From a bacterium (GTDB lineage Bacteria > Elusimicrobiota > Elusimicrobia > UBA1565 > UBA9628): a DNA stretch of 34,997 nucleotides. The notes under the pieces were generated by a model that was given only the letters and a program-made list of their open reading frames with translations, searched no databases and was not told the origin of the DNA. Position numbers and translations under genes: made by a program. The DNA lies in assembly GCA_021846045.1 (NCBI GenBank), contig JAJZCM010000019.1:1-34997 (forward strand), in the 5' to 3' direction. Below, one piece after another: positions 6,410-26,819 of this stretch; positions within the stretch are counted from its first letter, which is position 1, and each line of letters begins with the position of its first letter.

Positions 6410-7446
6410 ACGCCGGCAAAATAGCTCAAGCCTTAAAGGAACGCGCGCTTGAAATTGGAGCCGATCGTGTCGGAATTTCTCCCGCCGCGGCATTTCCAGA
6501 GGCGAAATCCTACCAGGAATGGGTCTCAAAATCTTACCACGGGTCCATGGCTTACATGGCGAAAAACCCGAAGACGCGCGCCGACATCCGGCTTTGGTGG
6601 CCACAGGCCCGCTCGGTTCTCATCTGCGCCTTTGATTATTCCGCCAACAAAAAAGCGCCTCTTCCCCAAGGCCATGGCCGCGTCGCGCGCTACGCGGGGG
6701 AAAGAGATTATCACCTCGTTTTAAGAGAAAAGATGGAAACGCTCTCTTTACAACTCAAAACGCTGGAGCCCTCCGCCGATTCAAAGGTCTTTGTCGACAC
6801 CAGCCCCATTCTTGAGAGGCTCTACGGGCATTTTGCGGGCCTTGGCTGGATCGGCAAGAACACGATGCTTTTGTCGGAAAAGGGCTCTTATTTTTTCCTG
6901 TCGGGAATGGCGATGAATCTCGAACTCCCGCCTGACGAGACTGAAACCAATCATTGCGGCAGTTGCCGAAGATGCCTGGAAGCCTGCCCGACCGGCGCTT
7001 TTCCCCAGGAACGAGTCATGGATGCCGGCAAGTGCATTTCTTATTGGACCATCGAACACAAGGGAGAAATTCCTCAAGAGAAACATTCAGGGATGGGGGA
7101 ATGGGTATTTGGATGCGACGTCTGCCAAGAAGTCTGTCCGTTTAACCGCTTTGCCTCTTTCGGACGCACATTTAAAACGCCGGGATACGAGAGCCTTCCG
7201 CTCAAGGAAATCACGCAATGGACAGACAGCGAATTTAAATCCCGTTTTTCAAAGACGGCTCTCGCCCGAACCAAACGCGCAGGCCTCCTAAGAAACGCCC
7301 GCATCGCCCTTAAAAACGCCGTAACTACTCACGTCACCCCGGCGCAAGCCGGGGTCCAGAGTAGCGATCTTCTGGATTCCGGCTTGCGCCGGAATGACGA
7401 ACTTGAGCAGTTACAAAACGCCGAGAAGCTCCCACCATGCGATTAA
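6406..7446 (+). CDS. queG: Epoxyqueuosine reductase QueG; start codon uncertain and non-canonical
   Basis: HGSMAYMAKNP.TRADIRLWWPQARSVL; GLGWIGKNTMLL; two ferredoxin clusters CGSCRRCLEACP and CDVCQEVCP. QueG-like N-terminus (IAQALKERALEIGADRVGIS) continues upstream of the ORF-track ATG at 6547. Confidence 0.92.
   Translation: MDAGKIAQALKERALEIGADRVGISPAAAFPEAKSYQEWVSKSYHGSMAYMAKNPKTRADIRLWWPQARSVLICAFDYSANKKAPLPQGHGRVARYAGERDYHLVLREKMETLSLQLKTLEPSADSKVFVDTSPILERLYGHFAGLGWIGKNTMLLSEKGSYFFLSGMAMNLELPPDETETNHCGSCRRCLEACPTGAFPQERVMDAGKCISYWTIEHKGEIPQEKHSGMGEWVFGCDVCQEVCPFNRFASFGRTFKTPGYESLPLKEITQWTDSEFKSRFSKTALARTKRAGLLRNARIALKNAVTTHVTPAQAGVQSSDLLDSGLRRNDELEQLQNAEKLPPCD
7323..7413 (+). repeat. 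Palindromic repeat family A, copy 2
   Basis: GTCACCCCGGCGCAAGCCGGGGTCCAG...CTGGATTCCGGCTTGCGCCGGAATGAC. It is an inverted copy of 2407-2497 and encodes the QueG C-terminal tail. Confidence 0.93.
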
Positions 7447-24818: not shown

Positions 24819-25211
24819 ATGTTCAAAAGAATAATGATCGCAGATGACAATTCGGTCGTCCATGATTTGATTTCCGCGCAGATGGCTATTTTAGGGCACG
24901 AGGTCGCGGGCGTCGAATCGGTCGGCAAGAAGGTCGTATCAACTTACCAGCGTCTTAAGCCGGACCTCTTGGTCTTAGACATCAGTTTCGAGGATACAGA
25001 CGGATTAAGCATATTGCGCGAACTTCGCAGTATCCATCCAGAGGCCAAGGTTTTAGTGCTCAGCGCCAATGAACAAAAAGAGACTCGCGCAATCGTGACC
25101 GCATTAGAAGCGGCCTTTCTTGCTAAGCCTTTTGCCGCAGTAGACCTTCAGGCGGCAGTTAAAAAAATATTCGACCAACCATCCGGTAACAGCACGAGGG
25201 CTTCCAAGTGA
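24819..25211 (+). CDS. CheY-like single-domain response regulator
   Basis: IMIADDN, DLLVLDISFEDTDG (phospho-acceptor Asp), VLVLSAN, AFLAKPF (Lys-Pro). Confidence 0.92.
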   Translation: MFKRIMIADDNSVVHDLISAQMAILGHEVAGVESVGKKVVSTYQRLKPDLLVLDISFEDTDGLSILRELRSIHPEAKVLVLSANEQKETRAIVTALEAAFLAKPFAAVDLQAAVKKIFDQPSGNSTRASK

Positions 25212-26551
25212 GCGAATCATTGAGCCCTCAGGAGTTGGAAGTTCTAGGCAAGATATTCCGGGACGGGGCGCTTTTAAGCGGTCGGAAATTATCTAAGTTT
25301 GGCCAAGGGAAATGGAAAGTTTCTTTTTCAGGCATACGGACGGTTACCGGCGAAAAAATCTCAGAATTTTTTAAGCTGGACATTGGAATAAACATGGGCG
25401 CCTTTGTCGGCATTTCAGAGCCGCTTTTTTTTGAAATCGTGATGTTGTTTCCGGAATGGAGCTTGATTCCTTTGGAAAAAAGTATTGCCGAAGCAACTCA
25501 AACCAGCGCCAGCAATTCGGACATGAACCGCCCGATTTTTAGCGAAGTGGCCAATATTTTGGGGAACGGTATTTTGGGAGCCTTGGCGGATCATTGCGGA
25601 GAGGCCTTTATCTCCTTGGCTCCAAAACTTGCGCGCGGTACGAAGCAACAAATTATTTCAATGGCGACGCGTCGCATGCCGGAAAACGCCGAGGCTCTCT
25701 TGATCCATGCGGAATTTTTCTCGGACAGTCAAGCCTGCGCAGCGACGGTTCTGGTCTTGGCGGATGCGGCGGCTTTAAGAAAGATATTGCCGAACAATTC
25801 GTCACTCCGGCAATCCGTAAGCTGGAGTCCAGACCCGAGTGAAAGTCTGGATTCCGGCTTTCGCCGGAATGACGGCATTGAAAGGACGCCTTCTCCGAGC
25901 GCCGATTTTAAGGTTTTATGCGCACAAAGCCCTCAAGATTTAGAAGATGTTTTTCGGCTTCGCTACCAGGTTTATGTAGTTGAGCATGGGTTCGAAAATC
26001 CAGCGGATTATCCTGACAAGCTTGAGAAAGACCTCTATGACGACTCTTCCGTCCATTTCTTGGCTCGCGACAATCAAGGTCGCGCCATTGGAACCGCGCG
26101 ATTGGTTTTAAATTCAAATCATGGTTTCCCTATGGAAAAGGAATACGATATTACGAAAACTTTGGCGCAAATTGATAGGAAAAAAACCGGAGAATTTTCA
26201 CGTTTCGCCATTCCGCGAAATGTCCAGGGTGAAAGGGGCGATTCTTTCAATGAATCCGCACGCGCCGGACATAGTGAAATCGCGTTGGCTTTGCTTTTGG
26301 CGGTATTTCAGAAAAGCGAACAAGAGGGTTTGACCCACTGGTGCTCCGCTGTTGAGCGGGCCTTGTGGCTGGCGTTGCGTCGTGGCGGCGTTTATTGGCA
26401 TCAAATTGGGGAACCTAAAGACTATCACGGCATCCGCATTCCATGTTTGCTTCCCATCGAAGAGTGCGTCAATCTTCGGGTGTTTCCCTTTCCGAAGGAA
26501 GTCGAGGCCTTCTACGCCTCCCGAGCCAAGGGAATTTTCGACGATAAGTAG
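25208..26551 (+). CDS. CheC/CheX-like phosphatase domain fused to autoinducer-synthase (LuxI)-like / exosortase-associated acyltransferase domain
   Basis: N-terminal FSEVANILGNGILGALADHCGEAFISLAP contains E-x2-N-x22-P. C-terminal LEDVFRLRYQVYVVEHGFENP, VHFLARDNQGRAIGTARLVLNSNHGFPMEKEY, GEFSRFAIPR. Confidence 0.78.
   Translation: MSESLSPQELEVLGKIFRDGALLSGRKLSKFGQGKWKVSFSGIRTVTGEKISEFFKLDIGINMGAFVGISEPLFFEIVMLFPEWSLIPLEKSIAEATQTSASNSDMNRPIFSEVANILGNGILGALADHCGEAFISLAPKLARGTKQQIISMATRRMPENAEALLIHAEFFSDSQACAATVLVLADAAALRKILPNNSSLRQSVSWSPDPSESLDSGFRRNDGIERTPSPSADFKVLCAQSPQDLEDVFRLRYQVYVVEHGFENPADYPDKLEKDLYDDSSVHFLARDNQGRAIGTARLVLNSNHGFPMEKEYDITKTLAQIDRKKTGEFSRFAIPRNVQGERGDSFNESARAGHSEIALALLLAVFQKSEQEGLTHWCSAVERALWLALRRGGVYWHQIGEPKDYHGIRIPCLLPIEECVNLRVFPFPKEVEAFYASRAKGIFDDK
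25801..25874 (+). repeat. Palindromic repeat family A, copy 3, inside a coding sequence
   Basis: GTCACTCCGGCAATCCGTAAGCTGGAGTCCAGACCCGAGTGAAAGTCTGGATTCCGGCTTTCGCCGGAATGACGG; encodes in-frame SLRQSVSWSPDPSESLDSGFRRNDG. Confidence 0.9.
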
Positions 26552-26561
26552 AAACAAGCGG

Positions 26562-26575
26562 TTGATTTAAATCAA
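26562..26575. promoter_or_regulatory. Perfect FNR/CRP-superfamily-type box TTGATTTAAATCAA
   Basis: Exact TTGAT-N4-ATCAA palindrome in the intergenic region upstream of the small peptide gene. Confidence 0.6.
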
Positions 26576-26666: not shown

Positions 26667-26819
26667 ATGAAATCAATGCTTTTGTCGTTGGCGTTTGTGT
26701 CGGTAGGATTCTTGTTTGCGAAGGTTTCTATTGTCAGCCCCTGTTCGCCGGGACGCGTTTGCGTTCAGCCTCAAATCGTAAGCCCCTGCAGCCCGGGCCA
26801 TATTTGCATCAACGGCTAA
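26667..26819 (+). CDS. Small secreted peptide with tandem Cys repeat
   Basis: SD-like gggaggg then MKSMLLSLAFVSVGFLFAKVSIVSPCSPGRVCVQPQIVSPCSPGHICING: hydrophobic leader plus two IVSPCSPGxxC units. Confidence 0.6.
   Translation: MKSMLLSLAFVSVGFLFAKVSIVSPCSPGRVCVQPQIVSPCSPGHICING

Follow-up and report, generated by a model that had tools for sequence, protein, structure and literature searches.

What might a CheY-type receiver control when the gene that follows it encodes a chemotaxis-type phosphatase domain fused to an autoinducer-synthase-like enzyme? Such an arrangement lies within the 34,997-nt stretch of Elusimicrobiota DNA analysed here (the window), where a sequence-only reading had placed a receiver gene at positions 24819-25211 and, overlapping it by 4 nt, a gene for a 447-aa fusion protein at 25208-26551. 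Both genes were found exactly there, on the forward strand. The first encodes a 130-aa single-domain receiver (PF00072, 63.9 bits) with all of the phosphorylation residues (D9, D10, D54, S82 and K103) in place, and the GTG start codon of the second lies inside its stop (GTGA); a 4-nt overlap between the two genes is common to all four species that carry the fusion. Autoinducer and N-acyl synthases are usually seen as controlled through transcription and substrate. Covalent attachment to a receiver phosphatase would, if true, place acyl synthesis under direct, fast and reversible two-component control, and the domains found here suggest that production of an acyl molecule may be switched directly by protein phosphorylation.

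The N-terminal half of the fusion (residues 1-195; 25208-25792, forward strand) had been read as CheC-like from an E-x2-N-x22-P motif, and both the motif and the homology held up. Pfam returned no CheC or CheX match for the fusion protein alone, the N-terminal half being too divergent, and a single-protein search gave a weak CheC match (NF041093, 23 bits, E=5e-5), so that the assignment rests on profile, fold and motif together. A profile of 22 homologues matched solved CheC structures (3qta, E=1.2e-13; 2f9z and 1xkr, 1e-8), and the top five Foldseek matches to the AlphaFold model of the fusion were all CheC proteins, 3qta, 2f9z and 1xkr among them (3qta_B: E=2.4e-9, TM 0.74 on target). The AlphaFold2 model itself, built from a six-row alignment, has a mean pLDDT of 53, with the acyltransferase half ranging over about 26-75 per 10-residue block, and is good enough for the CheC fold match only. 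The spacing of 22 residues in the motif is exact (E113, N116, P139); across 22 homologues that share about 22% identity, N116 and P139 never vary and E113 does so in one row (D in G022), so that the motif is not due to chance. The N-terminal half is a predicted CheY-P-type phosphatase domain, sharing its fold, its site and an adjoining receiver gene with the CheC/CheX/FliY phosphatases (PF04509, PF13690; T. maritima CheC, 1xkr/2f9z; H. marismortui CheC-like protein, 3qta), which act by placing two residues, a conserved Asn and an acidic one, in the receiver's active site (PMC3035606). It differs from CheC in keeping only the second of the two active sites: the first motif is not kept in the window's family in the homologue and structure alignments, and the domain is single-site, as in CheX.

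The C-terminal half (residues 234-447; 25907-26548, forward strand) had been likened to LuxI and to the acyltransferases associated with PEP-CTERM systems, and its homology to GNAT enzymes of the LuxI/NAS type was borne out. TIGR03694 scored 158.9 bits against a curated cut-off of 111.95, and PF13444, PF21926 (FeeM) and PF00765 each exceeded their own cut-offs (PF21926, 42.3 versus 27 bits); against the FeeM structure 2g0b, the acyltransferase profile reached E=0.0017 only. R252, D275, D278, R298, E329 (the candidate catalytic Glu) and R332 are kept in every aligned acyltransferase homologue, and the pattern R..Y, E-x-D-xx-D, R, E-x-SR is shared with the TIGR03694 acyltransferases and the N-acyl amino acid synthases (FeeM, 2g0b). 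LuxI-type AHL synthases (PF00765) belong to the same superfamily and have most of the core residues in common with the domain, but the position of their conserved core tryptophan (W34 in LuxI) is occupied here by F262 (alignment to 6wn0), and no LuxR-type gene was found among the ORFs scanned in the window. Because phenylalanine replaces the tryptophan, we have not adopted the label of AHL synthase.

The literature on the family favours another kind of product: it is linked to N-acyl amino acid synthesis, with a Glu essential in Nas354 (PMC4897644), and the N-acyl tyrosines of Stieleria represent another product class (PMC7293339). By analogy, the product would most likely be an N-acyl amino acid or a related amide. 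Nas343 and Nas354 are, like the protein described here, N-acyl amino acid synthase-type enzymes covalently joined to a regulatory domain; theirs, however, is a C-terminal PilZ domain that binds a second messenger (PMC4897644), while here it is an N-terminal receiver phosphatase domain.

The exosortase link implied by the family's name did not hold. TIGR03694 is rare in the phylum, exceeding its cut-off in seven of 345 genomes, and none of these seven has an exosortase: PF09721 had no match in G000-G003, and G008, G022 and G054 lie outside the 13 genomes with a match. Exosortases above cut-off occur in seven other genomes of the phylum. PEP-CTERM proteins were found in none of six genomes, a result to be read beside control genomes that likewise gave no match. 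On the PF09721 result we rejected an exosortase association for the acyltransferase; the absence of both a kinase and an exosortase from the window, as the reading had it, is true for the 20 ORFs scanned. A TIGR03694 enzyme thus stands apart from the exosortase, without need of it, and differs from the exosortase-associated members of its family in being tied to a receiver/CheC pair. Among plasmids we found four distant acyltransferases, none with 80% query coverage, and viral contigs gave no matches. In G008 (L075:3729-6617, C103), a lone TIGR03694 acyltransferase gene lies 10 nt after an OmpR-type response regulator gene and precedes a gene whose 466-aa product has no Pfam match.

The whole fusion is present in four of five species examined from one genus of uncultured bacteria, at 75-76% identity, and is missing from the fifth (a genome 94% complete); outside the genus, none was found in 345 genomes of the phylum at E<=1e-14. 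A scan of genome contigs, in which CheC-domain peptides were the sole queries and which would therefore miss acyltransferase fusions to other CheC domains, returned the same genus and G022 only. In this last genome, which belongs to the same family, the receiver, the CheC-like protein and the acyltransferase each have a gene of their own; those for the CheC-like protein and the acyltransferase lie in different frames and share 11 nt. In the tree, the CheC of G022 is placed beside the fusions, and this grouping is fully supported. Every genome is a fragmented draft, and those with names are MAGs; the separate genes of G022 are equally explicable as a fusion broken by an indel (contig coverage about 2.6). 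That the fusion is itself an artefact of assembly or frameshifting is nonetheless refuted by its presence in four separate genomes, with differing linker lengths and sequences and always in frame, and we give this explanation a negligible chance.

Selection on the gene is uneven along its length. Within the genus, dN is 0.09-0.14 for the CheC domain and 0.15-0.18 for the acyltransferase, with dS at least 0.65 (dN/dS roughly 0.1-0.16 and at most about 0.17, respectively), whereas in the linker (residues 196-233; 25793-25906, forward strand) dN is about 0.5-1.1; both domains are thus under selection and the linker is not. The fusion is a genuine architecture on which purifying selection acts, and its adjacency to the receiver is conserved in the four species, so that all three findings on which the sequence-only reading had staked itself, a CheC-type N-terminus, a GNAT-type C-terminus and this adjacency in relatives, came out as it had claimed. 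The domain families are known, and their combination is new as an architecture; no account of a CheC-acyltransferase fusion was found in the papers that could be searched.

In frame within the linker lies a copy of a dispersed palindromic repeat (25801-25877, forward strand), which makes up about 77 nt of the linker, is new relative to the earlier reading and is not found in the linkers of the sister species. The repeat has strong hairpin potential (z=-4.9) and at least 42 matches in the window's genome, and is present too in G001-G003; its core occurs three times in the window, in this full 77-bp copy and at 7372-7398 and 2422-2448. A linker that is free of constraint and bears a repeat tells against a finely tuned linkage, and coupling between the domains, if any, would then be by tethering or surface contacts. 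The state of the linker also speaks for a simpler arrangement, in which the receiver/CheC module and the acyltransferase are tethered or co-expressed because they share a process, neither affecting the other, and the occurrence of the acyltransferase without CheC in G008 and G054 points the same way. However, the fusion has been kept in four species, the acyltransferase is the next gene in G022, and that of G008 again directly follows a response regulator gene, and we think it rather unlikely that the linkage amounts to so little.

Pairs of a receiver and a CheC-like gene are common in the order. In relatives outside the genus, a receiver gene lies directly upstream of the CheC-like gene, on the same strand, in 23 of 26 loci (gap -4 to 35 nt), and because they adjoin so regularly we regard the receiver and the CheC domain as a functional pair. 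The outer neighbours of these pairs differ, among them a citrate synthase, a Mur ligase and an MG2-domain protein; at two loci the neighbour is a cyclase-HD protein. This last arrangement, in which the pair is followed by a gene for a PF00211 + HD_5 protein, was seen in two genomes (L073:5457-8543 and L062:1115-3820) and may represent another output. CheA had no match in G001, G002, G003 or G022, nor in the eight f2 genomes searched, and one in G000, and the flagellar export gate FlhA was present in only 2 of 60 genomes. Since both are mostly absent, in the majority of these genomes the pair functions outside classical chemotaxis, with independence from CheA supported in the sister species at least, and a role in chemotaxis was set aside as unlikely. 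Unlike the CheC/CheX/FliY phosphatases, the domain described here thus occurs mostly where CheA and the flagellar export genes are missing, and is fused to an acyltransferase. The fusion suggests a role for receiver-CheC pairs, which are numerous in bacteria without CheA and flagella. HisKA kinases are plentiful, with 17 matches in G000.

FliM middle domains were also among the Foldseek matches, and in G003 the fusion adjoins a cluster of receiver, MotA, MotB and kinase genes that includes one with a FliG_C domain. The CheC-like domain could accordingly be pictured as a FliM-like adaptor that brings the phosphorylated receiver to a motor cluster of the FliF-FliG/MotAB type, where the acyltransferase would act. 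But the phosphatase motif is kept, G022 has the receiver, CheC and acyltransferase genes and no FliG_C match, and the remaining three fusion species have their FliG_C matches on contigs other than the one that carries the fusion; we consider an adaptor role highly improbable. As a separate observation, G000, which has no FlhA match, contains a motor-like cluster unconnected with flagella (L084:1375-9133, C58): a gene for a 537-aa FliF_C-FliG_M-FliG_C fusion protein is accompanied by genes for histidine kinases and by divergent receiver/MotA/MotB genes. The cluster next to the CheC fusion locus in G003 (L085:3422-11544, C62) is similar. G000 also has (L086:867-2828, C9) a 654-aa protein in which FliG_M-FliG_C is followed by TPR repeats, and most relatives have FliG_C matches in frames of about that length.

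Our tentative proposal for the locus, to which we assign a little under an even chance, is a two-gene phospho-switch with an acyl-metabolite enzyme as its output, in which the phosphorylated receiver would gate the acyltransferase via the CheC domain. A histidine kinase encoded elsewhere would phosphorylate the orphan receiver at D54, and the phosphorylated receiver would then dock on the fusion protein's CheC domain, altering the activity of the tethered FeeM/LuxI-like acyltransferase or its access to acyl-ACP. The acyltransferase would make, most likely, an N-acyl amino acid or a similar amide, and the CheC site (E113/N116) would strip the phosphate, leaving the enzyme gated by a self-resetting timer. 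We infer the kinase, the docking, the direction of the effect and the product, as well as the gating itself and any role of the product as a signal; the proposal draws on the domain identities, the motif and catalytic residues, the coupling of the genes and the purifying selection, and the three-gene form in G022, where the acyltransferase is linked to the receiver/CheC pair without fusion, counts for it, as do the many HisKA kinases of these genomes. Against it stand the absence from the window of a kinase gene linked to the fusion, the low confidence of the fold model and the D for E in the motif of G022.

In B. subtilis, CheC binds the enzyme CheD with an affinity that CheY-P increases more than seven-fold (PMC3513319), and a CheC protein can therefore be a phospho-dependent controller of an enzyme. 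A CheC-type protein would act as a CheY-P-responsive enzyme controller in both systems, but that of B. subtilis is non-covalent, belongs to chemotaxis and acts on a receptor deamidase (PMC3513319). The same system also lends support to coupling in the reverse direction, since CheD increases the phosphatase activity of CheC five-fold (PMC3513319): the acyltransferase might sense its own product or how much acyl-ACP is supplied, and thereby tune the CheC phosphatase, so that the phosphorylated receiver, which is a free protein and could act elsewhere, would report lipid status to another target. Yet no further target of the receiver is visible, and the acyltransferase keeps the core residues of its superfamily, with dN far below dS, as for a working enzyme; reverse coupling seems to us unlikely.

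Downstream from the fusion is a perfect, FNR/CRP-box-like palindrome, TTGATTTAAATCAA (26562-26575, forward strand), which is identical in all four fusion species and was found once in the window against 0.03 expected. This palindrome and a conserved leader precede a gene for a 50-aa exported-looking peptide (26667-26819, forward strand), which has its own ribosome-binding site, a signal-like N-terminus and two IVSPCSPGxxC repeats, comes after the fusion gene in each of the four species and has no Pfam or NCBIfam family match. Only its position ties it to the fusion. The phospho-switch proposed above might be extended to include it: the receiver and single-site CheC would form a transferable, self-resetting phospho-timer used beyond chemotaxis in the phylum, joined here to an N-acyl synthase so that a phosphorelay gates synthesis post-translationally, possibly with the exported Cys-peptide as a partner or substrate. 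We regard this wider scheme as possible, if on balance doubtful. The mature part of the peptide is under strong purifying selection (pN 0.00-0.12 versus pS 0.35-0.72).
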